Assembly: GCA_000467715.1 (NCBI GenBank)
Contig: AJFK01000105.1
Span: 1-34,783, forward strand
Length of the DNA: 34,783 nt
Direction: 5' to 3'
From: Hysterium pulicare CBS 123377
Lineage: Eukaryota > Ascomycota > Dothideomycetes > Hysteriales > Hysteriaceae
Part shown: in pieces, positions 13,539 to 33,536 of the stretch
Layout: each line of letters opens with the position of its first letter
How positions within the stretch are numbered: the first letter of the stretch is position 1
The notes under the pieces: model-generated
What the model was told of the DNA's origin: nothing
Database searches by the model: none
The model's input: the letters and a program-made list of their open reading frames with translations, nothing else
Translations under genes and position numbers: made by a program

Positions 13539-15566
13539 ATGCCCAAAGCTCGCGTTTGCTACTGGTTCCGTACCGATTTGCGCCTCCATGATTCTCCTGC
13601 ACTGAAAGCTGCTCTGGACCTTAAACCGGAGTGTTTCTACCCCATATGGACATGGGATCCACATTACGTGTATCGTGCAAGGGTCGGTCCAAATCGTTGG
13701 CAGTTCTTGTGCGTCAAAGATAGAAGCTGTCCGTCCTAGAGTTGGGCTCATTGACATACAGGATTGATTGTCAAACCGACCTCTCAAAGTCCATCACCAA
13801 GATCAACCCGAATTCGAAACTCTTCCTTATTCGTGAAGCCCCGCAGACCCTATTCCCTAAGCTGTTCAAAGCTTGGAAGATTACACATCTGGTATTTGAG
13901 AAGGATACGGATGCATATGCAAGGGAGAGAGACGAGCAGGTCATTGAATTGGCTAGAGAGGCTGGTGTAGAAGTTATTGTCAAGACTGGGAGGACTCTAT
14001 ATGATCCGGATGAGTTGGTCAAGCAGAATCACAACAAGCCTACCATGTCAATAACCTCCGTGGAAAAGGTAATATCAGGGCACTGTATTACGTACTCGCG
14101 GGCTGTACTAACATAAAACATAGGCTGGAGTGCGCATTGGACCCGTTCCTCGCCCTATACCGACCCCAAAATCCATACCGGATCCCGGCGACCTTTCTTT
14201 GGACTTCGATCAAGATCGCCCGTCTCAGGAGCCGGATTGCAATGCGGTACAACGAGATGGCTCTGAGAACTCTTATTCTTCTCTGGCAGGGCCAAATGGA
14301 GATTTTTCACTCCCAACAATGGAGGAATTAGGTCTCAAAGAAGCGACCACACCACACAGGGGTGGCGAGACAATTGCACTGAAGATGCTTTCAGACATCA
14401 CTGCTGACGAAGACTACACTGCTACCTTTGAGAAGCCAAAGACCGCCCCTACTGCCTTCGCTCCTCAGGCTACGACGCTTTTATCTCCACATCTCCACTT
14501 TGGTTCCCTAAGTTGTCGCGAATTCTACTGGCGTGTCCAGGATGTCGTCGACAAATACAAAGGCCGCGCTAGCAAACCACCAACGAGCCTTACCGGCCAA
14601 TTGCTATTCCGAGACATGTACTTTGGCGCACAAGCTAGCCTGGGTTATCGTTTCGGTCAGACATATGGCAATTCTCACTGTCGGTTCATTCCTTGGCATC
14701 TTCCATCTGAAGTCGACACCAGTACTGGGCAGATTACAGGGAAGTATATGACAGATTCGGTTGAGGCTAAGCAGCAATTGGAGCGCTGGAAATATGGCCT
14801 AACGGGTTTCCCTTGGATCGATGCTTTGATGAGACAGCTTAGACAGGAAGGATGGATTCATCATCTTGGAAGACACGCCGTGGCTTGCTTTCTTACCCGG
14901 GGTGGATGCTACATTGACTGGGAGCGTGGTGCTGAGGTTTTTGAAGAATGGCTCATTGATCACGAAGTCGCGTGCAACGTTGGAAATTGGCAGTGGTTAA
15001 GTTGTACAGCATTCTTCAGCCAGTTCTTTCGCTGCTACTCGCCGATCGCTTTTCCGCAAAAGTGGGATAAAGAGGGGAATTTCGTCCGGAGGTATGTTCC
15101 AGAGTTGGCAAGCTTTGATCAGAAGTACATTTACGAGCCCTGGAAAGCACCGATTGCGGATCAAAAGAAATGGGGTTGTCTCATCAAAGGTGATACTCTT
15201 GGTGAGGACGGCAATATGAAAATCTACCCAAAGCCAATGTTCGATTTCGCGCAGAGGAGGGAGATATGCATCAAGGCAATGAAGAATGCTTATCACGTCG
15301 GCTTACACGGGGACGACCCGAAGGTCCTAGATGGAAGTTGGAGAAGATTGTTTGATGATGCCGCAGAGGGACCGACTGAAGGCAAAGATGGACAACCGGG
15401 TGCTATGATTGCGCATGAAGATGCGACTGCGGAGGAAGAAGTTCATCATGAAAGCCCTCCATCCCCGAAGAAGACTCGCAAACAAGCGACATCGACTAAG
15501 GCTGGACACAAGAGAGAGGCTAGCCAAAGTACGCTTGATGGTATGGTCAAGAGAACGAAGAAATGA
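13539..15566 (+). CDS. (6-4) photolyase / animal-type cryptochrome, three exons
   Basis: This is a flavoprotein of the cryptochrome/photolyase family, expected to repair UV (6-4) photoproducts in nuclear DNA or to act as a blue-light sensor. Exons 13539-13708, 13762-14068 and 14124-15566 join in phase to 639 residues, with introns of 53 and 55 nt. The N-terminal antenna domain begins CYWFRTDLRLHDSPAL and contains RVGPNRWQFL. The FAD-binding catalytic domain includes LSPHLHFGSLSCREFYWR, LTGFPWIDALMRQLRQEGW, HHLGRHAVACFLTRGG and the Trp-rich NVGNWQWLSC. The two active-site histidines of (6-4) enzymes (406 and 410) are both present, which favours repair activity. An unusual polar insert of about 40 residues lies around 180-222. 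The roughly 100-residue tail is acidic then strongly basic (KKTRK, VKRTKK), a likely nuclear signal. CPD photolyase is less likely given the histidine motif. Confidence 0.95.
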
Positions 15567-18628: not shown

Positions 18629-20947
18629 TCATTGCGTATTCCAAGGCGGGACGTCTTCCATGAATTGTTCATCGTATTCGAAGTTCGCGTCTAGATTATT
18701 GCTGAAATCGAGAGGCAGGTCCGGGAAAGCATTCATGCCGGCGAGAGTATCAGCAGTGGTAAATTGCATGTCTGAAAGTTGAGTGTTGGTGTAATCAATC
18801 GAGTTACCAAAGGTCTCGATGAAGTTGTTCGTTCCAAAGGGCATGTTAGGCAACATAGGAGCTTGTTGTCCGTACGCAGGCATCATTTGTTGCATAGGGG
18901 ACATGGTTGTGGCTCTCCCTGGCACTGATTGAAGATAGGGTGATTGGGTGGTCATTGGTAAGGTTGTATTTGAACTTCTGGCTGTCGGTTGTCCGTATGG
19001 TGATTGTTGCTCCATGGGCGAAGTGGTGTTAGATGAACTTGAAGCACTACCGGTCATAGTCATTGTGTCCTGGAAAGGTGCTAATGGAATCCGAGGCGTT
19101 TTCGGTCTCTTGATTGGATCTTGGGGACTTAGTCCGTCAACGTTGTTTCTCAACTCATTCATCTGTGGGTTAACCCATTGAGCCATGATCATGCCGTCCC
19201 GAAAGTGATTCGCAATATGAGTCTCCCTCATATCCCAGGTTTCAAGAATTTCAGGGCAGAATCCACACTTCCATGACTTAGTGACCTGCTCTGCTGCTGC
19301 TTTCTTCCAGCGAGTGCTAGCGAGATCATGAAGTGGAGCACCATGGTAGTTTTTCACATGCTGTCGTAGGTGGTCAGGACGGTAGAAGGTCCGGTCCTGA
19401 GATGGTCTGGCCTCGCACTCGCTAATTCGATGGTTGTGTAGAAAATGGTCTTCGGATGGATTTGATTCCAGGCAGAAAGCACAACAACTACCTTGGCGGT
19501 TAATATATGAAATGCGAGGGCCAAAGAGCATGCACGTCCATGATACCCGTGGTAAATGTTGGGTCTCTTCGTGACGCCTCCATGATTTGGGCGATAGATG
19601 CTTGAGACAGAATGTGCACTGCCATGTATCTTGGATAGAGGTCGAATTAGCGTTGGAAATTGAGGGAGCCGGAACGGCAGTGATAGTAGGTAATTGCGGC
19701 GCCTGCCAGCTCCTCCTGTAGTTTTTCTTCTTCCCTCTTCTGGAGGAACCTTGGCGGCAAGCGAGCGGGGACTGAGGTGATGAGTTGCATACACTAGAGC
19801 CTGAGACTGAACCAGCTCCTAGTCGAGGGCTCAGAGTAGTAGCGAATAATGGTTGAGAGAATGCTTGACTGTATTGTGTACCTGACGCGGCACTTGCAAC
19901 GGCACTCTCCGGTGGTGCCTCATCGTCAGAACTGCTCGATAACCATTGTTCCATAGGGTTGAGTTGACGGGCTCGAGCATTGGTAAACCAAGTGGTGACC
20001 TGTTTTTCAGTGATATTGCACTCTTGGGCTAATTGCCTCTTATCTTCCGCGCTGGGGTACGGGTTGTCTTGATGTGCATCCAGCCACCCTTGGAGTTTAT
20101 TCAATGCGCTCAAAGGTAACTTGAACGAACGACCGGCCCTTGACCTCTTCACCTTGGGTGCTTCTTCGATCGGTTCAGGCTGTGAAATCACTTTCGGAGC
20201 AGCGTTAATGCAGCTCGGGCACTTCGCCGGTTTTCCAGGATTGATGAGAGCCGACAACTCGCACGCTGAACATCGTAGTTCAGACTTTGGAATCTCCAGC
20301 TTCGACAACTCGGGCTTCACATCCTTTGCTTTTTGAACAGGATTCGGAAGCTGGGACAAACTAGGGGCGTTGCAAGTTGTGCATTTGATGTTCTCTCCAG
20401 GATTGGTGATGCCCCAGAGTTCACAAGCGACACAACTTTTGTCTTCGGTAGGTTGTCCTGGACCACAAAAGAAACTGTTCGTGCGAGATCCTTCTTTAGA
20501 CGTGAAAACACTGAGTCTCGTGACGACAGGATTGATGGTTGGCTGATCTTGTTGAACACGGACTTGATCACCCTTGCTGACATTAGACTTCTCCAAAGGT
20601 AGTGAAGAACAAAAAACACCTACGACGTGTACGTTCCAAAAGGTTCCAAACTTTAGGCCACCATTGACATCTTCTCCCAAGGGGTTGTTGATGGTCGAAG
20701 GTCCAGCAATTTGTTCGGATGGATACTAGGAAAAGTCAGACGGTTCGTTCAAGAGGACATGATGAGTTATGAATGGCTAAGAAGTGTTTCGTACCTGATC
20801 GTCAAGGTCCGAGGGTGTCACCTCCGCAGGGTGAAGCTCTCCGGGATCATATGACGAGGAGCCATAGCCAGAGTCGAAGGACCAGATGGAGGGAGCTGCT
20901 GCGGCCTTGCGAGGCCCGCTCGGTCCAAGCATCGTGGCATTGGGCAT
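18629..20947 (-). CDS. Homeobox and C2H2 zinc-finger transcription factor, two exons
   Basis: A nuclear DNA-binding regulator. Exon 1 is 20947-20795 and exon 2 is 20725-18629, joined in phase 0 across a 69-nt intron (donor GTACGA, branch CTGAC, acceptor CCTAG), for 749 residues. The N terminus contains SIWSFDSGYGSSSYD. Two Cys4 motifs with identical C-x2-C-x13-C-x2-C spacing (about residues 149-169 and 203-223) resemble small zinc ribbons; both have an NPG turn. A homeodomain of TALE/KN character spans about 246-306, with helix 3 reading QVTTWFTNARARQL. Three C2H2-like fingers follow (about 420-440, 465-487, 537-557), then a Pro/Gln/Ser/Met-rich activation-type tail. Homeobox plus C2H2 proteins are a known Pezizomycotina class linked to development; the target here is unknown. 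Start chosen at the first ATG in the frame that gives SIWSFDSGYG. Confidence 0.88.
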
Positions 20948-21596: not shown

Positions 21597-24500
21597 TCAT
21601 GTTCCATATTCTCGTCCGGCTTTGGTACCATTCATAGTAGTTTCTTTGGCCGAAAAGACGTCCAAGAAGCTCTTCCGCGGCCTGTGCGTTTTGTTTGGGT
21701 GACCATTCTCGATGACTTTATCCTTGAAATGAAGTGTCCGCGCTCTCGTCGTCTCCATGTCTGGTAGTAGAGTCTCCAGGGTTGGGATGTCCCTCGCCGC
21801 ACTGAAGAAAGACCCATGCGGAATCCAATACAGGCCTTCCAATTCCATGAATTGTTGACGCGTTTTGTTAATGTTGGTCTGAATCTCATCAAAGTCATAT
21901 TCGGGAGATCCTTCTGGAGGGAATCGAAAGTCTTGAGCAAGAAGAGCAACATCGTAGGACCTCAGAACAACCTCTCTCTGGTTCGAAGTTACTTGTTTGC
22001 GAGGCCATTCACAATACGGAGCATCCAGAAGAGTCAAATCAAGCTCTGCCAAACCAAGTACTCCGACAGCTTGGAAGGTTAACATCCATGGTTCATCTTT
22101 AACGACAGACTCACAACCGGGGTCAATTTCCTCCAGCGGCGTGACCAGTAGAGGCAGGAACACAGCTGAGATGCCTAACTCCTCACCGGAAAAGTGTAAG
22201 GGACGGTTTAGCCCCAAATCTACGGCACGCTTGAGTGCTTTTGGAAGCTTGGATATCCGCTCCATATGAGCCGCTCGTTTTGCCCGCTCATCCGCCAATC
22301 GTTGGGCCTCAGCTTCTGCAGCAAGGCGGGCAGCTTCCTCTTCATCAGCAATCCGTTTCGCCTCTGCTTCAGCCTCGGCGATCCTTCGAGCTTCCTCCTC
22401 TTCTGCGGCCTTACGACTGGCCTCCTCTTCTTCCGCTTTGCGAACCGCTTCTGCCTCTGCAGCTTGGCGTTTGCTTTCTGCAACTTGTCGTTCCGCTTCC
22501 TGGCGTCGTGATTCGCGTATAGACTCTGGCGTCGAGGCCTTCTCAGGCGGTGCTGGCGTTGATTTTGCCGATGGCGTTGGTGTCTTCTTAAGCTTGATCT
22601 CGTCTCCCGTCTCATCATTAAGCGGCCGTTTCACTTCCTTACTCTTCTCTCGTTCTGCCGCGCGAGATTTGGATAGCATCTTCCTCGACGGTTTCCGTTC
22701 GTCTGGAGATTCTGCCTCAGGTGTTGGCTTGACATGACGCGCTTTTGCCCCATCACCTATAGGCGGTTTTGTGCCTGGTTTCTTTACAGGTCTACGCCGT
22801 TGGCCATTATCGCTTTCCTCAGACCGAGCACGTGCGGTTCTTCTTGGAGAATCATGATCTTCAGATTGTCGTTTGGCCGATTTCTGGACAGGTTCCTGCT
22901 CCTCTCCTTCGCTGTACGATCGAGCTTTAGCCTTAACCTTCTTGTGCGGTCTCACTTCTTCCTCGCTTTCCTCTGGAGACGACTCGTCTTTTACTACTCT
23001 TCTGACTCTTTTGGCGTCGCGCTGATTTGCTAGCTCCCGTCCAGACATGAGCCTCCCTCTTGACTTCTGGGGAGCCCCTCCTGGCACCGTAGAGGACTTT
23101 ACGAGATGACTACGTTTGGTCTCCTGCCGCGGAGAAGACGAGCGCTCTCTTCTGGGTGAAGATCTTCTTTTCGTTCGCATTTGGGACGCAACGGGTGCTT
23201 CCTTCTTATTCCTTCTAGGACTTCTATGCTGTTGACGATAAGTGTCGGACGCTGTTCTCAAAATGTCTCTCTCTTGCTCCCATTTGGGACCCCGGCGCTC
23301 GGCAGATATCTCGTAGTATGTTCGGCCTTCACGATTTCGCCGTGTGGGATCGAAGTTGTCTTGCTCAAGCAGTAAAGTGATAATTTTTAGATGACCTCTT
23401 CCAATGGCAACCAACATAGGTGTTTCACTATGCTTCGATGGATCGGGATCTGCTCTGAGTCCCATTGCCAAAAGGAGGCTAAGAATATCATAATGACCGC
23501 CTCGAGCTGCAGCGACACCGCATTGGATGTTGGGCTTGATGTTACTATTGAGCAACTCTCCAACCGCAAGCATATCACCCACTGCACATTTCTCTATCAA
23601 AGTCTCCATGTTGTACTCGTTGTAAAGTAACCGAGAGGCCTGCTTTGTCAGACTGGGAGTGTCGTTCTCGTCTTCGTTGTGGACGTCTGTTTCGCGTTGC
23701 ATCGCTTCTTTTAGTTCCTTCTCGATTTCTTCGGCATCGTCATCGTCGGGATCAAGGACATCGATGGCGCGCTGGCCTTTCTTATTCTGGTGATGTGGAT
23801 TAACTTTGCCTTTTCCCAATAACAGTCTAATCACGTCCAAATGACCATTCTCAACAGCGTCGATCAGCGGTGTATCCTGGTTGTCGGATTTGCAATCGGT
23901 GCGGCAGCCCTGATCAATGAGAAAGCCGACAACCTCGACCCATCCGTGAAGAGCAGCCTTCTGCAAAGGCGTAATGCCTGCAAAATCAGCTTGATTAAGC
24001 TCCTCTGGCGCTGCTTTGTATGCTGCTTTAACTGCGTCCAGTTCGCCCTTCTCACTCTCACGTGCAAGCCTAGTTGCGCCAAATTTGTCGACATTTTTCT
24101 TGTGGCCCATGGTACGGGCCGGGGATGTTAAAGCGCGATGGGAAGATCGCTTCACCCTAGAGTATGTTGATAGACCAGGTGTCTGTACCGGCCTGGGAGA
24201 AGACGAGTCGGAGCTGGAGTCGGACCAAATTTTCCGCTCTTGTGGTGGCAGCACAATGCTCGTTATCTCTCTTCGCTTGCGACCCTGTGTGCCTTGTAGG
24301 ATAGATTGAGATGATTGCGAACGTTTGTGAGCTCTACCTAAGCCGGGAGTAGTAGGAGAAGTCGCCTGGTTACGAAGAGCGTGCGGGTCTCTCGTGGGTC
24401 CTTCAGTCTTCGCCTTTTGTCGCGGAGGCTCGATGGTTTTGGGATTTGATTCATCTCTCAGTTTGCGCTTTCGAGACTCGACCGTCGATGAACTCCTACC

Positions 24501-25061
24501 ACGAGTGGTTGGGAGAGAAGGGGAGGCCACCGGCTGTGGAGAAGATTTAGTTGGTTCCGTAGGGCTTGTGTCCTTCTCTTGACGTGAGGTGGCCTGACTG
24601 CTGGGTGAGGTTGGAATAGGGCTCGTCGCATCACGCTTGATGCCGTTCTTGGCGCCGTTCACCTTCGGGCCAGACGACGGCTCTCTTCGACCATTCGCCA
24701 CCGATGGACGCGCAGATGTGCCTTCCTTCGTGGAGCGGAGACGAGTCGCATCATCTTCGTCGCTTCGCTCGGTCTTGATCATGTTTTTCTCCTTATCCTC
24801 GTCCTGTGCAGTGTCAGCGAGAACGACAGTTTCTGCCTCGGACTCGTTAGGTGCATCGTCTGAGCTATTGTCGCCATTTTGGAGGCGTAATGTCGACGAC
24901 GACGTGTCTTGTAACGATGTGGGTGAGGGTGACTTGGTTAGGCGCGATACGGATGCGTGCTTCGAGGATGGAACGGGTCGGTCGCTCTTGCGGGCTGAAT
25001 AGTCTGCAGCATGGGTAGAGGTGGTGGATATGGTGTGAACAACATCGCCATTACTGGTCAT
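21597..25061 (-). CDS. Large ankyrin-repeat, coiled-coil nuclear protein (Hos4-like candidate)
   Basis: A single uninterrupted frame of 1154 residues. Residues 1-320 are disordered, Ser/Thr/Pro-rich and basic (KRKLRDE, GRKRREITSIVLPPQERKIW). An ankyrin array covers about 325-595 (for example FAGITPLQKAALHGWVEVVG, DNQDTPLIDAVENGHLDVI and a later SETPMLVAIGRGHLKIITL). A highly charged basic linker with KKVKAKAR, RRPVKKPGTKPP and similar motifs follows. An alanine/glutamate/arginine-rich single helix or coiled coil occupies about 849-934. The final 220 residues look folded and contain FLPLLVTPLEEIDPG and YCEWPRKQVTSNQREVVL. The layout resembles fungal Hos4, the ankyrin subunit of the Set3 histone-deacetylase complex, but this is inference from architecture; it could be another chromatin-associated ankyrin protein. 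The ATG at 25061 is the first in frame. Confidence 0.85.
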   Translation of the reverse strand: MTSNGDVVHTISTTSTHAADYSARKSDRPVPSSKHASVSRLTKSPSPTSLQDTSSSTLRLQNGDNSSDDAPNESEAETVVLADTAQDEDKEKNMIKTERSDEDDATRLRSTKEGTSARPSVANGRREPSSGPKVNGAKNGIKRDATSPIPTSPSSQATSRQEKDTSPTEPTKSSPQPVASPSLPTTRGRSSSTVESRKRKLRDESNPKTIEPPRQKAKTEGPTRDPHALRNQATSPTTPGLGRAHKRSQSSQSILQGTQGRKRREITSIVLPPQERKIWSDSSSDSSSPRPVQTPGLSTYSRVKRSSHRALTSPARTMGHKKNVDKFGATRLARESEKGELDAVKAAYKAAPEELNQADFAGITPLQKAALHGWVEVVGFLIDQGCRTDCKSDNQDTPLIDAVENGHLDVIRLLLGKGKVNPHHQNKKGQRAIDVLDPDDDDAEEIEKELKEAMQRETDVHNEDENDTPSLTKQASRLLYNEYNMETLIEKCAVGDMLAVGELLNSNIKPNIQCGVAAARGGHYDILSLLLAMGLRADPDPSKHSETPMLVAIGRGHLKIITLLLEQDNFDPTRRNREGRTYYEISAERRGPKWEQERDILRTASDTYRQQHRSPRRNKKEAPVASQMRTKRRSSPRRERSSSPRQETKRSHLVKSSTVPGGAPQKSRGRLMSGRELANQRDAKRVRRVVKDESSPEESEEEVRPHKKVKAKARSYSEGEEQEPVQKSAKRQSEDHDSPRRTARARSEESDNGQRRRPVKKPGTKPPIGDGAKARHVKPTPEAESPDERKPSRKMLSKSRAAEREKSKEVKRPLNDETGDEIKLKKTPTPSAKSTPAPPEKASTPESIRESRRQEAERQVAESKRQAAEAEAVRKAEEEEASRKAAEEEEARRIAEAEAEAKRIADEEEAARLAAEAEAQRLADERAKRAAHMERISKLPKALKRAVDLGLNRPLHFSGEELGISAVFLPLLVTPLEEIDPGCESVVKDEPWMLTFQAVGVLGLAELDLTLLDAPYCEWPRKQVTSNQREVVLRSYDVALLAQDFRFPPEGSPEYDFDEIQTNINKTRQQFMELEGLYWIPHGSFFSAARDIPTLETLLPDMETTRARTLHFKDKVIENGHPNKTHRPRKSFLDVFSAKETTMNGTKAGREYGT

Positions 25062-26002
25062 AACGCAGGTGTTCGACAGGACGCGAGGGTGCCTGCCTCA
25101 TCGTTGGCTTGGACGATGCACGGGACGGAAACGGTCAGGTGGAGCGGCAAGAACAAGGCGGACGGCTGCCACTCCTTTCGACGTAAGCTGGATGGCTTTG
25201 TGCGCTGCGAGATGTGATGGAGTTGAAAGGATAATCGATCGAGTGGCAGCGGGATCGTGAAGAACAATGAGGGCGAGGAGAACAACAGTCAGGTGGATAG
25301 GCGAGGAAACGGAGGACTGGTAGCCTGTGTAGGGGCATTAATGCGACCGAGGAGGAGGCGAGGGTGCACGTCAAATTGGCACAGAGTGGCCGACACGGCT
25401 GAGGCTGGCCTAGCCATGGCCCTCTGCGATGTGATTGACGGAGCCATGATCAACGGCCCCTGCAAGAGAGAGGATAGGGAGGACAAGGGGACGGGGTGCG
25501 CCGCGGCCATATAACGGAAGAGGAGGACATTCATCATTAGAACGTCGGCTTCAGCTGTTTGCATTCACATCTTCTCAACCTTGGGTCGCATGCATTCATT
25601 CCTTACCCAGTGCTCGTGCGCGAACGGACCTTGGAAGAGCCTCGATACTGCCATCTAGCCATCATCAATACACCACGAACAATTATTTTGACATCTCTCG
25701 CCCAACAATTCTCGCTCCTATTATTATAGCTGAATGTTTCAATGCACTACTCCATAGCAGGCCACTAGAATCTAACCCTAACGCAGTGCCCGAACGTATC
25801 CGAAAGTTGCAGCGCCCGGTCGGTGTGCACAGCCCACAGCCTGCGCGTTTGAGCGGTGACGAGAAAAGGCTTCGACGTTCCACTCCACCACGTCGACACA
25901 CCCAACTCGAGACAGCTGTAAATTGCTCCGACCAAGAACGTCCTCTCGGCAGTGCACCACGTCATATAATCATCTATAAGATTTGACCTGTATCGTTGTA
26001 GA
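25062..26002. other. Intergenic between divergent genes (shared promoter region)
   Basis: This 941-bp region separates the ankyrin gene (-) from the DFG10-type gene (+) and must carry both promoters. No supportable ORF. An 11-base telomere-repeat-like motif sits at 25773-25783. Confidence 0.5.
25773..25783 (+). promoter_or_regulatory. Telobox-like motif CTAACCCTAAC
   Basis: The motif matches almost two units of the CCCTAA telomeric repeat. Interstitial teloboxes bind Myb-type factors such as Tbf1 in fungal promoters. A match of this length can arise by chance in a window this size, so the call is weak. Confidence 0.25.
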
Positions 26003-27413: not shown

Positions 27414-29969
27414 ATGGGTCGTGATGGCTACAACGGAGGTGGCCCCGTTGTAATTGAACCAAAAGAGGACAAGGTCCACATCATTCCTCTCGATATAGGG
27501 GAGATTGAAAAGGATCTTAAAATACCAAAGGATTCCCAGGTCTTCGAAGCAGGAGAACAGCTCCACAACCCAATAGGAGGCTTCCAGGCACAATTTGGCT
27601 ACATTATCGGTCCTGCAGCTGCGGAACCGCCTAAATCACCGAAACTCCTATCAAGGCTCTTTTCTTACCTCAAGCCTGGTAAAAAAGGCAAGGAGGACTT
27701 GTATAACGATTCCTATCACTGGGTGGCAGCCTCAAGTCTCCTCAAACACGCTCCTGAATTGGCTCGAAACTACCATACGAAACATCCTTCAGCGCCTAAA
27801 CCGTACGGTTTCGACGATCACAGCCTGAGTCCAAAACATAGTTGTACCTGTTGTGAGCTGAAGGGTGATACCAATGGATCGAGCACGGAATAGGTCATCA
27901 GTTCGTACATCCAACGAGAAAGACTACCATGGAGTTTCCATACCCGGTAAAACTGCCGAAGGCCGCAGCCCTCAATCGTCGTGGACCCAGAGAACGTACC
28001 CAGATGGGGGCTCTTCCACTCTGCCTTATGGAAAACATAATGCCAGTGTAGCCTTCAAGGGCTCTGCGGTGTCCACTCGGCTTGATTTTAGCCAATTCAT
28101 CAATTCAATGGATGACGCATCCTTCGCTTACTTCTCCCTCATTCGCGAGTACGCGTTACGGTCGCTACAAGGAAATGCTTTACAGTACGAAGGATTCTAT
28201 AAGGCCATGATATCCCAACGATGGGAAGACGAACAGCTAGCCCGATCCTCAGTCATTGAATTTCAGGAGAACGGCTCAAGATCGAGGACCTTTACTGGAT
28301 ACGACGATTTCAAGTCCTACCTCGAGAACGTTCCGGCCGACGAATCACCGAGTCGCCTATTTATTCTTGAAGATCTCCCTGTGAGATTTGTGTGTCTGTT
28401 TGGATCACGCCTGGGCGTCCATCCTAATATCTTCGCTTGTCACTATAGTACAGAAGACAGCTCGACCGTGTCTGATAATATAATGGCATTCCCATCAATA
28501 ACTCGACAGGACACGATAGACGGGCTGGAGTATTCAAGCACTACAAGCATCCAACAAAATGATGAGAAACGGCACTTTACATTGCGTTATCCCATTACCA
28601 TGCCACGCGTCTCGGCCAAACAGCACCCTGACCCGAACCTTTGCCCTCCGTGGCTCAAACCAAGCACTCGACTCATGGACCAGAGTGCTTATCCCAATTT
28701 TCTGGTAGAGCGACTGCTTGATACACCGTCGCTACATGATAAATGGGACGCGCGTGGTCAAGTTTCTGAGCTGGAGGGACAAGTAACCTATTGGTCCCAA
28801 ATAGTGCCTTCTGGCAGTTGGAACAGTGAGTTCATGATTCTAACACCCATAGAGCGCATAAATTTGATGCAGGCATTCGTTGGCCTCGACAAACTCAATT
28901 GAGTCAATTGCACTCCCCGCAAGAGAGGACGGTGAAGCCGTATATGTCTCCATGAGATCATTGTACAAGTATGCCGCTTTTCGAAACTAACAGTTTACCA
29001 GGTCTTCTTCTAGTAGATCCATGCCTCAAGGATCCTTCCCATGTCTCCCTCATTAACGGCGCGCCTCTTCTCAACACCAGCCGAATGATTCGATACCCGG
29101 AACTCGAAGACCACGAAAAAGTCGAGATCGCCCCTAACCCTCTCCAATGGCACCCTAGCGCCGCTTTCACCAAGTATATCCTGCACGACGACATCCTAAC
29201 TCACTTCTCCGTTGCCGATGCTGGCCCTGGTAATAGCCCACTCGCCGTCACACCTTTCATACGTGGTTTTGTAATCAGCAAGTGGGCCGCACATCTCAAC
29301 CATATGCATAGATGCTACACCAACACTCGCGCTGCTCTTTTCTCAGGTTACGACAACCACAACTCTAAACACGCCAATAATAGCATTAGGCTGGTAAATC
29401 ATATTGAGCGCTACGGTGGCGACTGGAAAGAGTGGATGTTTGAAGCCATGACGCGCTTCACCAGTGACCTCGTCCTCGCCCGTCTTAGTGTCGAATGCAA
29501 CATGCGCGCCCTCGGAATGGACGTCGATAATGTGAACAGCTACGGGCTTGTTGGTAAGCGCGAGGCGCAGATGTGGCACTGCGTTCGGGGAACTTGTTCG
29601 GATACGCAGCAGATGTTCGAGAGTCTAGCAAATTCGTATGCTCAGGTGGTGGCGTTGAGGGAGGCGCAAGCGAGCAACGTGCAAGCAAAGTCGGTGCGGT
29701 GGCTTACGGTTCTGGGAACTTTTTTTGTTCCCTTGTCCGTGGTGGCGGGAATATTGTCGATGGGTGGAGAGTTCTTGCCGGGACAAAGACACTTCTGGAT
29801 ATACTTCGCAGTGGTTGGTCCGCTGTTATTGCTCTTTGGTGCTCTTTTGATAGGTCTTATGGGATGGGAGAGTGCCATCAAAAGGTGGAGAAAGGCTCGG
29901 AGCAAGACGAAAGGGGTCGCCCATGGCACAAGTTCAAGCATTTGGGGGAAGAGTGAACATCTGCTATGA
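27414..29969 (+). CDS. CorA-like magnesium-transporter-family membrane protein, three exons
   Basis: Exons 27414-27852, 27902-28825 and 29002-29969 join in phase (phase 1 at both junctions) to 776 residues. Intron 1 is 49 nt (GTGAGC...ATCAG) and intron 2 is 176 nt (GTGAGT, CTAAC branch at 28986-28990, ACCAG). The joins remove an otherwise awkward ORF overlap at 27865-27893 and give a run SWNSLLLVDPCLKDP across junction 2. The long cytosolic part includes DASFAYFSLIREYALRSL and YKAMISQRWEDEQLARSS. The C terminus has two membrane spans (about 689-707 and 719-741) separated by the loop SMGGEFLPG, in the position of the GMN loop of CorA channels. The GMN triplet itself is not conserved, as in other divergent fungal members, so Mg2+ transport is not assured. 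Residues 1-146 carry no known domain. Confidence 0.82.
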
Positions 29970-31269: not shown

Positions 31270-31429
31270 CGAGTGAACGTCTCCTCCGCCAGATAGAAAA
31301 TTCTGGAAACAGACTGACCGCCGGATCAACTCCGGATCAGCAAACTCGCTTCAATCGCCTCAGATCGACCAGGCAACAGCGGATTAGTCAGAAGTTGATT
31401 CGGCTGCCCGCAGGCCGGGCCTCGAAACA

Positions 31430-31437
31430 TATAAATA
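31430..31437 (+). promoter_or_regulatory. TATA box of the U2 snRNA gene
   Basis: TATAAATA lies about 45 bases before the predicted RNA 5' end and is followed by a CT-rich tract. Fungal U2 is made by RNA polymerase II and commonly has a TATA element at this distance. Confidence 0.7.
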
Positions 31438-31474: not shown

Positions 31475-31736
31475 AGCTCTCTTTGCCTTTTGGCTTAGGT
31501 ATGTTTTCTTCCAACCCAACCCTTCCCTTCTCTTACTTGATGGTCTATTTGCTAACATGTCTCGTCCATCAACAGATCAAGTGTAGTATCTGTTCTTTTC
31601 AGTTTAATCTCTGGAAGGTGGCTACGGCCACATACTTTGATTAATCCAGTTTTTGGAACTCGTTCTCTGGCCGCTGGGCTTGCTCATGTCAGAGAACACA
31701 GTGTCGCTCGTATTGCACTGCCTCGGGCTGACGCGA
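31475..31736 (+). ncRNA. U2: U2 spliceosomal snRNA gene, interrupted by an intron
   Basis: U2 pairs with the intron branch site and with U6 in the spliceosome core. Exon 1 (about 31475-31498) ends TTTGCCTTTTGGCTTAG and exon 2 (31576 to about 31736) begins ATCAAGTGTAGTATCTGTTC; joined, they match the most conserved stretch of U2 base for base with yeast. GUAGUA (31583-31588) is the branch-site-recognition sequence. Downstream are stem IIa (UUCAG/CUGGA), stem IIb (GUGGC-UACG-GCCAC, a UNCG-type loop), a Sm site AGUUUUUGG (31648-31656), stem III (GTTCTCTG 31662-31669 with CAGAGAAC 31690-31697, perfect) and stem IV (GUGUCGCUCG with CGGGCUGACGC, loop UAUUGCACUGCCU, closing at 31734). Mature length is about 185 nt, normal for fungi. 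A T-run follows at 31741-31747. The ends are approximate. Confidence 0.96.
31499..31575 (+). other. mRNA-type spliceosomal intron inside the U2 snRNA gene
   Basis: 77 nt with donor GTATGT, branch site TGCTAACA (CTAAC at 31552-31556, 20 bases before the 3' end) and acceptor CAACAG. All three signals are near-consensus for ascomycete pre-mRNA introns. Excision restores the uninterrupted conserved U2 sequence exactly. The position corresponds to between yeast U2 nucleotides 26 and 27. Confidence 0.92.
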
Positions 31737-33536
31737 ATCCTTTTTTTCATTGAGTGCTCCAGCTTGTCTGGTGCCTTGAAGAAGAAACCACTTCTCTTCC
31801 ATTCCGATCTACGGTGTGAGTTGGTGTTGAGATCTTGTTGGTTTTGGTTATGTTGCGTTGTGGCAGCGGGGTCCACTGTCTGTGAGCAGGCTCACTTCAT
31901 AACGTCTATTGGATTGTAAGCACTTGATTCAAATCACATTTAGGATCTTCCAAAGCATCTTCATTTACTAGGCCAGATGTTCTCTTCTTTGACCTTCCGA
32001 CCTTGACTTCTAGGAAGTTGCTCAACCTCACCTTGTAGCCGGGAGCCTCTCACCGCCACCTCTCACTTCCACCTTCTTGTCGCTTGCCCCACCAAATCGA
32101 CCAACACGACGGCTGCCTAATGATCGCAATAGATCTTTGGCGTTTCCAATCTTGGTGAGTGGTGAGGTGACGTCGCTTGTGCAGTATGCTCGTGCCAGGA
32201 CCCGAATAATGTTTCCAGGCAAACGGTCTGGGTGGCATGTTCTCGTCCTCTATCCGCGCTCACTGGTAGCCATTCCTTTGGACCTTGTTGACCCCCATTA
32301 GCCAGTGAAGAAGGATACTATCTCCGCGAAGATGGGTGCATACACGACTCGTAACCCTCCTACCTACCGCTTGGTACGTTATCCATACCACATTACATCA
32401 CGCCTTTCAGATGAGCGAGTCACGGGTGGGAATCTCCACAATCATGGCCAGCGATGAGAATGAAGGGTTTGCCAGGATGGTGGCATGGAGCCTGCCCCAA
32501 AAGTTCATACATCGTTCGCATAGACTTGCTGCCCGCCCCCGCTCGCAAACATCTGTGCCTTTCTTCTGGGACAGGCAAACTAATCTACATTCTAGGGAAG
32601 CAAGTCCATGTCGGTAGCACATTGCATGTCCAGGCGAGAAGCGAAGAGATCCAACACGCGTTGTGCGGACAAACAAGGTTTGATATTGACAGCTATGGAA
32701 GCGTCAGCGAATGAGGATCACAGCGAGCAGTGCAAATGGTGGGGTTTACTCTAAACGCATTACCTCACACTTCATATCAAACAAGAGCATAAGGCAAATG
32801 AATGGGAAGCTCTTGCGAGTGTGTAGTACTTTTGAGGCCCGGCACGGAGTTCATATGGCTCAGCATATCACGAAAACCTTGATATGGAAAGCTTCACACA
32901 TCTTCCAGGTCCCACCAACTCCTAGTCACGCATTACGAAGGGCCGATACCATGAACTTGCTTTTATCGTATTGGTGATTCGTAGATCGATATGCCGGTTC
33001 AAAGAAAGTCCCGTCGCACGTAGATCTGGATATTCATATCCTTTCGATCTAGATTTCACCAAGCAACCGATTGGGGCAATATAGACTGGACTATCATAAC
33101 TGATGGTTTGGGCTACACAAGGAGCGTCATCGATAAATGAACGGTAGAGATCAGAGCAAAGACGGGCGGTTGGAAAAGGACAAGATGGAAGATCGGTTTC
33201 AGCAGGCGACGAACGATGGACTGTGGCTGTTCCGCATTGAGGCAAGATCGAAGGCGGAGAACAACCTTGTCCAGGTGCTCCAACCCCAACCCACCCAGCT
33301 GGCGGCTTCTTGCTCAAGCGTGACTGCCCATCATGTCTGTAAATAAGAAAGGCAGTCAGATGTCTTGCCTTCGCGCATTCCATGCCTCCCAGCACCCTCA
33401 CCGCATCTTCCACCCCACTATCGGCCGAAGAATCCCTTGTACGAGCTTCCGGCTGACCCCACCTCCCTCTACGACGACAACTTGCCTGAGGTTGTCCTCG
33501 TGTACTCCGGATTGATACTTCCACGAGACTGCCGCC
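31737..33536. other. Intergenic, gene-free
   Basis: This 1.8-kb region follows the U2 gene. The longest frames (plus 32077-32301, minus 32922-33524) have no recognisable domain and overlap other chance frames. No second snRNA, tRNA or transposon is recognised. The last 150-200 bases are presumably the promoter and 5' UTR of the hydrolase gene. Confidence 0.45.

Follow-up and report, generated by a model that had tools for sequence, protein, structure and literature searches.

The U2 snRNA gene in the window

The window, here meaning the whole 34,783-nt stretch of DNA that was analyzed, is the entire contig C87 of the 37.2-Mb genome of Hysterium pulicare, which is assembled in 596 contigs. It contains a U2 snRNA gene at 31475 to 31737, on the forward strand like its parts and flanking elements described below, which was detected with Rfam model RF00004 at 121 bits (gathering cut-off of 46; E value of 3e-24). 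A reading of the gene made earlier from the letters alone (the sequence-only reading) had ended it at 31736; its coordinates were right to about 1 nt, with the start standing and the end moving to 31737. The first exon (nt 1 to 24 of the RNA, AGCTCTCTTTGCCTTTTGGCTTAG) occupies 31475 to 31498, where A31475 is the inferred 5' end on the basis of the position of GUAGUA at nt 32 to 37 and the spacing to a TATA-like element, CATATAAA, at 31428 to 31435, which begins 47 nt upstream of this inferred transcription start. The exon is followed by an insert of 77 nt at 31499 to 31575, with the layout GTATGT...TTTGCTAACATG...CAACAG, which its splice signals and the empty sites in paralogues predict to be a U2-type GT-AG spliceosomal intron. 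The 5' splice site GTATGT (31499 to 31504) and the 3' splice site CAG (31573 to 31575) can be read directly, and a CTRAY motif marks the branch site GCTAAC at 31551 to 31556; its branch A is nucleotide 31555, and the intron ends 20 nt further on. The insert lies between nt 24 and nt 25 (site B), in what is presumably the U6-pairing part of U2 (helix I).

The second exon (nt 25 to 186) extends from 31576 to 31737, beginning with ATCAAGTGTAGTATCTG and with its unmapped 3' end placed at ..GACGCGAA. It carries the branch-site recognition sequence GTAGTA (31583 to 31588), which falls at nt 32 to 37 once spliced and is joined to exon 1 only without the insert. Downstream are stem IIa (31597 to 31616), with six pairs of which every cell is paired in four distinct paralogues; stem IIb with a UACG loop (31618 to 31631), where one of five pairs has changed on both sides; stem-loop III (31662 to 31697), with two pairs changed on both sides and 1 of 32 lower-stem cells unpaired, in the C387 paralogue; and the stem-loop IV region (31701 to 31734), recognized by Rfam and without variation among the four distinct intron-bearing bodies that were aligned. 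Between stems IIb and III, sequence reading and the Rfam match identify AGTTTTTGG at 31648 to 31656, an Sm-like motif that we take to be the Sm-site region. The element TTGA-N9-CTTG-N9-TTGARGAAGA at 31750 to 31785 was found by a genome pattern search and follows U1, U2, and U4 genes.

The Rfam alignment spans 31523 to 31742, leaves one stretch unaligned, and begins within the 77-nt insert. This has a practical consequence: because the match starts inside the insert, a routine search with the Rfam model gets the 5' end of the window gene wrong, as had been anticipated for snRNA searches that assume a contiguous 5' end. Elsewhere in the window, open reading frames encode a protein with a cryptochrome/photolyase FAD domain (14124 to 15566), a KN-type homeobox protein (18629 to 20725), an ankyrin-repeat protein with DUF7593 (21597 to 25097), and a CorA-like membrane protein (28956 to 29969).

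The U2 gene family

A genome-wide U2 search, in which 46 of 531 candidates were scored, gave seven matches, six of them above the Rfam cut-off; the seventh, on C15 (34.3 bits), is a 3' fragment. Five of the six genes contain introns, six in all, and these occupy one of three places, following nt 6 (site A), nt 24 (site B), or nt 36 (site C). The gene on C387 has one intron at site A, those on C569, C87 (the window), and C180 have one each at site B, and that on C40 has two, a GC-AG intron at site A and one at site C that splits GUAGUA between its fifth and sixth bases. The C159 gene is without an intron. From nt 37 onward the U2 bodies are contiguous in all six copies. The intron-bearing genes scored 139.4, 121.8, 121, 120.1, and 86.7 bits, compared with 80.5 bits for C159; the score of 86.7 is close to that of C159 because the intron of that gene divides the best-conserved part.

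The intronless gene is divergent. It is identical to the C87, C180, C387, and C569 genes at 111 or 112 of 164 to 165 aligned positions and to C40 at 108 of 161, and it reads ATCATATG where the other copies have ATCAAGTG, ATCAUAUG in place of ATCAAGUG, and a loop of ACAA in place of UUUU. GUAGUA is intact in this gene, as is the 3' element, and a TATA-like element lies at -50. Its fold z score was -1.39 over 197 nt, compared with -2.99 for the window body over a different length of 155 nt.

Two sequence patterns were also run against the genome. A 17-base exon 1 pattern allowing up to two mismatches had 14 matches, of which the five exact ones are the five intron-bearing genes and the other nine have two mismatches; the reversed control gave five. 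A pattern for the branch-site region (up to one mismatch) found C87, C180, C387, and C569, with one match for its control; it misses C40, which is split there, and C159, which is too divergent. The sequence-only reading had proposed looking for a contiguous U2 copy elsewhere in the genome. One exists, in the form of the divergent C159 gene, but neither the Rfam search nor the two patterns found a contiguous canonical U2 gene in the assembly. A search for 5.8S (39 of 1,289 candidates scored) likewise gave no match in the assembly, which, together with its 596 contigs, makes it look incomplete, so that a contiguous canonical U2 gene could be missing from it.

Intron boundaries

When the insert is removed from the window gene, the junction (14 nt on each side) is identical at 28 of 28 positions to the corresponding sites of C387 and C40, while none of 50 shifted 3' boundaries does better than 22 of 28. 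The match to the sister genes is not chance. In the genome itself, C387 runs through the full 28 nt without a break; in C40 this is true of 26, since the site C intron of C40, two bases from the edge, was removed computationally. The claim that a U2 gene is here broken by a 77-nt segment with intron signals is borne out by these exact boundaries. For all six U2 introns, the spliced junction matches every canonical paralogue lacking that intron at 27 to 28 of 28 positions, in contrast to 22 to 23 for shifted boundaries, in a comparison for which other introns of the paralogue were removed beforehand and C159 was left out.

Numbered from A31475, the spliced window RNA would have A29, G30, and GUAGUA at 32 to 37. 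The U2 of Chaetomium thermophilum has A29, G30, and a branch-site region of G32 to A37 in a structural paper (PMC11958768), and this agreement in register favors the intron reading. For Neurospora, PMC2780460 gives a methylated U2-A31 adjoining G32, a numbering that disagrees with the window register if the same A-G is meant.

Helices, promoter, and 3' element

In U2 stems IIa, IIb, and III, 95 of 96 helix cells are paired across four distinct intron-bearing bodies, a number reached by 13 of 500 shuffles, and three helix pairs have changed on both sides, which was matched by 18 of 500 shuffles. Further pair types in the helices were within the shuffle range (116 of 500). Sliding the helix partners left 28 to 56% of cells paired and zero or one pair changed on both sides, a comparison in which the unslid version is favored by a helix structure taken from Rfam. 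C569 was omitted from the helix count because it is identical to C387, and C159 was omitted from the pair count because it aligns poorly in stems IIa and IIb.

By a motif list of our own choosing, a TATA-like element starts at -47 in four of the intron-bearing U2 genes, at -46 in C40, where ACAAATA matches weakly, and at -50 in C159, so that the TATA distance is nearly fixed whichever intron site is occupied. The 3' element, in the general form TTGA-N8/9-CTTG-N8/9-TTGARGAAGA, is downstream of all six U2 genes and has 20 matches in the genome, compared with none for a reversed control pattern. It is hairpin-like and is also found downstream of U1, U4, and several other RNAs; the U5 and U6 genes inspected showed no such element behind them. 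The element is likely a common 3'-end formation signal of Pol II small RNAs. Together, the paired helices and the TATA-like and 3' elements are signs of genes that presumably work. The view that the window gene is functional rather than a pseudogene gains from the compensatory helix changes, the nearly fixed TATA distance, and the common 3' element, and these features, along with the splice signals and empty sites, equally favor the proposal that its insert is a spliceosomal intron of the mRNA type.

Two related RNAs on C16 (L019) and C56 (L021), which have GATCTCGTTGTCAARAGGTAC in common, also lie upstream of the 3' element. The C56 RNA additionally resembles U2 in its Sm and stem IV region, and neither had an Rfam match at an E value of 0.05.

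Candidate introns in U1, U4, and other snRNA genes

The genes for U1, U4, U5, and U6 were located with the 3' element and Rfam searches. Counting U1, U2, and U4, the genome contains 15 candidate snRNA introns of 50 to 77 nt, 14 of them GT-AG and one GC-AG; the sites were chosen by eye, so that the GT and AG ends are partly built into the choice. All 15 have a CTRAY branch site 9 to 20 nt from the 3' end, and two have a second CTRAY at 24. The U1 genes on C242, C243, and C289 each contain two candidate introns, after nt 6 and after nt 115. The first divides AUACUU|ACCU, which we take to be the sequence that recognizes 5' splice sites, and the second directly precedes the Sm site. One candidate intron was found in the U1 gene on C300 and one in the variant on C15; there is none in the U1 gene on C315, and none is visible by eye in a divergent U1-like copy on C250. 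The U4 gene on C48, for which the 5' end was inferred and the 3' element is imperfect and outside the 20 matches, has one candidate intron at about nt 13, and the U4 gene on C596 has none. Introns were not seen in the sole U5 gene found (C329) or in the best-scoring U6 gene (C383). The intronless U1 (C315) and U4 (C596) copies mean that splicing is not obligatory for those families.

Once spliced in silico, the three two-intron U1 genes all measure 155 nt to the 3' element. The junction test was applied to eight U1 and U4 introns, without that of C15, and in six of them (both sites of C242, both sites of C289, site 2 of C243, and U4 C48) the junction matched better than shifted boundaries did, at 23 to 27 of 28 positions versus 19 to 23. 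The other junctions were weaker, at 24 of 28 versus 23 when shifted for site 1 of C243 and 22 of 28 versus 22 for C300. With the Rfam U1 model (cut-off of 69.5 bits), two of the three two-intron genes scored 32.9 and 28.2 bits and the third had no match; the intronless U1 gene was also below the cut-off, at 53.4 bits.

There are thus six candidate intron sites (U2 nt 6, 24, and 36; U1 nt 6 and 115; and U4 nt ~13), each of them empty in another copy. They fall in what are presumably the regions where U2 contacts U6 and the branch site, where U1 contacts the 5' splice site, and where U4 contacts U6. Five of the six are within the first 36 nt (P of 0.0024, with the limit set after seeing the data, independent gains assumed, lengths rounded, and C15 omitted), a 5' bias that is suggestive only. 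The cores of the snRNA introns are poor in G, at 6.5% versus 19.5% in mRNA introns of the same genome, a comparison of 15 snRNA introns, two of which are identical, with nine putative mRNA introns chosen heuristically by a further rule after an earlier filter had kept 9 of 185. This may be a sign of constraint or of a style common to highly expressed genes.

Several variant RNAs accompany these genes. If spliced, the U1 RNA on C300 (L031), the copy for which shifted boundaries matched equally well, would have the 5' end AUACUCACCU in place of AUACUUACCU, a variant expected to form a stronger pairing with GTGAGT donors. Divergent copies of U2, U6, U1, and perhaps U5 exist beside the canonical ones on C159 (L006), C300 (L009), C250 (L013), C15 (L018, L007), and C327 (L033/L034); the second C327 RNA contains CCTTTTACC, and several divergent copies retain the 3' element. 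They could be a second variant set or decaying copies. In a U6-like sequence on C6 (L011), the sequence breaks after GACAC and seems to resume at ATCAAAGAG; the intervening stretch, GTGAGG...CCTAAC...TACTAG, could be a candidate U6 intron. This stretch and an upstream intron in C342 (L010) were judged by eye, and neither is claimed.

Possible gain, loss, and movement of introns

The U2 copies allow related genes with different intron sites to be compared. C387 and C569 are identical at 151 of 151 body positions, and their upstream DNA is related (78 nt at 82%), yet the intron is at site A in the former and at site B in the latter. The window gene and C40 have related upstream DNA as well (219 nt at 77%; E value of 6e-42), with an intron at B in the former and at A and C in the latter. 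The site C intron of C40 resembles the site B intron of the window gene (TTGATGRTC..TTTGCTAACATG..TCAACAG), a likeness reached by 1 of 5,000 shuffles in global and 0 of 5,000 in local alignment, with splice signals kept fixed and 92 cross-site pairs possible. The same intron is weaker in its likeness to the site B introns of C569 and C180 (57 and 109 of 5,000 shuffles globally; 31 and 1,126 locally). Taken with the related upstream DNA, the likeness points to the same intron at positions 12 nt apart, and one intron has apparently moved between sites B and C in this pair of genes. ATC follows both of the acceptors, and the 12 nt between the sites start with ATC, a repeat at which a template switch is no less possible than reverse splicing.

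In the 3' flanks, which cover some 50 nt surrounding the 3' element, C569 goes with C40 and C180, and C387 with C87 and C159. The grouping differs from that given by the upstream DNA, which is a sign of conversion among copies. The site A introns of C387 and C40 are weakly alike (73 of 5,000 shuffles globally, 181 of 5,000 locally) and, by their position, likely share descent. A common origin of the U1, U2, and U4 introns was considered and is not claimed, since likeness between families is not clearly above that expected from composition; the best U2-U1 pair had a z score of 2.2 (7 of 300) and shuffle counts of 125 of 5,000 globally and 343 of 5,000 locally.

A predicted spliceosomal intron in U2 and its alternatives

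The interruptions, the splice signals, the exact restoration of U2 sites, and selection on the exons are evident in the DNA. We are confident that the window contains a Pol II-type U2 gene with a U2-type mRNA intron at 31499 to 31575, predicted to be removed by the spliceosome, and that it is one of five such U2 genes in a genome with short introns at three U2 sites and candidate introns at two U1 sites and one U4 site. A filamentous ascomycete is also likely from a 406-residue Prp8 fragment of this genome, which scored 884 bits against PDB 9l5r, the subject of a C. thermophilum paper, compared with 796 bits for 3jb9, which is S. pombe spp42; 9r8v reached 899.6 bits in total over two stretches, the best of them at 792. 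We infer from these features that the introns are spliced and that the intron-bearing copies are expressed. Under this model, a primary transcript made by Pol II would begin at about A31475, the ordinary spliceosome would excise 31499 to 31575 before or during 3'-end formation at the common element, and the product would be a normal U2 of about 186 nt. As the spliceosome would be removing an intron from U2, new U2 would be made with the help of existing U2.

Two other accounts deny such splicing or its importance. The intron-bearing genes might be pseudogenes or minor copies, with working U2 made by C159, an intronless gene in which GUAGUA, the 3' element, and a TATA-like element (at -50) are all preserved. 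C159, however, departs from the U2 sequence common to the other five genes, scores 80.5 bits, and has the weaker fold, whereas the intron-bearing copies maintain their helices through compensatory change, and we regard this account as improbable. Retention of the inserts in the mature RNA as expansion segments is the least probable account of all: extra segments reportedly can occur in fungal snRNAs, but these inserts lie within the most conserved functional stretches, one of them inside GUAGUA, sisters lack them at the same place, and every insert has a branch site and acceptor at intron spacing. An introner-like element with copies throughout the genome is also hard to credit as the source of the inserts. 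Elements of that kind are described in fungi (PMC3443670); a BLAST search of the window intron against the 37.2 Mb returned only itself, which excludes near-identical copies, although the search was blunt enough that the related B introns of C569 and C180 were also not listed.

Other alternatives concern why the introns are there and how they came to differ. They may be kept as a control device that ties snRNA supply to splicing capacity so that the RNAs adjust together, which would fit their presence in U1, U2, and U4, with none seen in the sole U5 and the best-scoring U6, and the G-poor cores (6.5% versus 19.5% in the nine putative mRNA introns). The presence, number, and position of introns differ between near-identical copies, however, which fits turnover better than a designed circuit; U1 and U4 copies without introns exist, and the mRNA comparison set is small and heuristic, so that a control device seems unlikely. 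An ancestral U2 gene with introns at all three sites, followed by differential loss through cDNA of spliced RNA or gene conversion and without any movement, has more in its favor, since sites A and B are each filled in more than one copy and the flank groupings indicate conversion. Set against it are the specific likeness of the C40 site C intron to the window intron and the upstream DNA common to both genes, and we consider it somewhat unlikely. A bolder model, which we hold to be less likely than not, is that in this fungal lineage introns are gained again and again in the RNAs of the spliceosome. Excised introns would reverse-splice into the contact sites of U2 (nt 6, 24, and 36), U1 (nt 6), and U4 (about nt 13), be copied into the genes, and then spread or vanish by conversion; C40 and C87 would represent one such move, and all canonical U2 genes found would now depend on splicing. 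Reverse splicing agrees with the sites and with the shift from B to C, but differential loss of old introns combined with template switching fits nearly as well. This part of the mechanism, in which introns are gained and moved by template switching or else through reverse splicing into snRNAs and the copies are mixed by conversion, is more speculative than the predicted splicing itself.

Comparison with known snRNA introns

Rhodotorula hasegawae, the subject of work by Takahashi and colleagues in 1993, is a basidiomycete yeast. Tani and Ohshima (1989, 1991) and Canzler and colleagues (2016) reportedly described introns in the U6 snRNA of Schizosaccharomyces pombe and other fungi. The R. hasegawae U2 snRNA has an mRNA-type intron according to the title of Takahashi et al. 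(1993, Mol Cell Biol 13:5613), as cited in PMC2586383. The genes described here are similar in having an mRNA-type intron in U2, but differ in that the fungus is an ascomycete, that six introns at three sites are distributed over five U2 paralogues, one of them with two introns, that U1 and U4 are also interrupted, and that one intron has apparently moved. The S. pombe U6 intron is of the mRNA type and near catalytic nucleotides, and reverse splicing is its usual proposed origin (PMC10484740). Fungal U6 introns are likewise mRNA-type introns in a spliceosomal RNA; unlike U6, which is made by Pol III, it is the Pol II-type U1, U2, and U4 genes that contain them here, and the best-scoring U6 gene, on C383, is intronless.

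Introns are also present in the U3 snoRNA genes of fungi, including most Pezizomycotina (Canzler et al. 2017, PMC5832005), and the same paper states that, to date, frequent interruption by introns is known for U3 and U6 and for no other small structured RNA. As in the present case, the U3 introns in that paper are GT-AG with RCTRAC branch sites and a 5'-biased position, and filled and intronless copies occur in one genome, although U3 is a snoRNA. Intron transposition and introner-like elements, with related introns at new positions, are described in fungi in PMC3443670, which cites Torriani et al. (2011); those cases involve mRNA genes, whereas the target here is a spliceosomal RNA and no near-identical repeat was found. 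Among the matches listed from searches of the open-access literature, none reports introns in the U1, U2, or U4 genes of an ascomycete. Exon 1 joined to a GT donor had no match in the viral_contigs and genome_contigs collections, which include no relatives of this fungus. As a kind, snRNA genes with mRNA-type introns are already known; the ascomycete U2, U1, and U4 case has no precedent that we located and may be new.

Introns in snRNA genes are a main circumstantial argument that spliceosomes can insert introns into their own core RNAs. To our knowledge, U6 has so far supplied most of the cases behind this argument, with a single yeast as the case for U2. A single genome with several copies of each snRNA, filled and empty sites, identical bodies with introns at different sites, and one intron apparently present at two sites makes gain, loss, and movement testable. 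If C159 is silent and the assembly has not lost a contiguous copy, the U2 supply of this fungus would be wholly dependent on the spliceosome.
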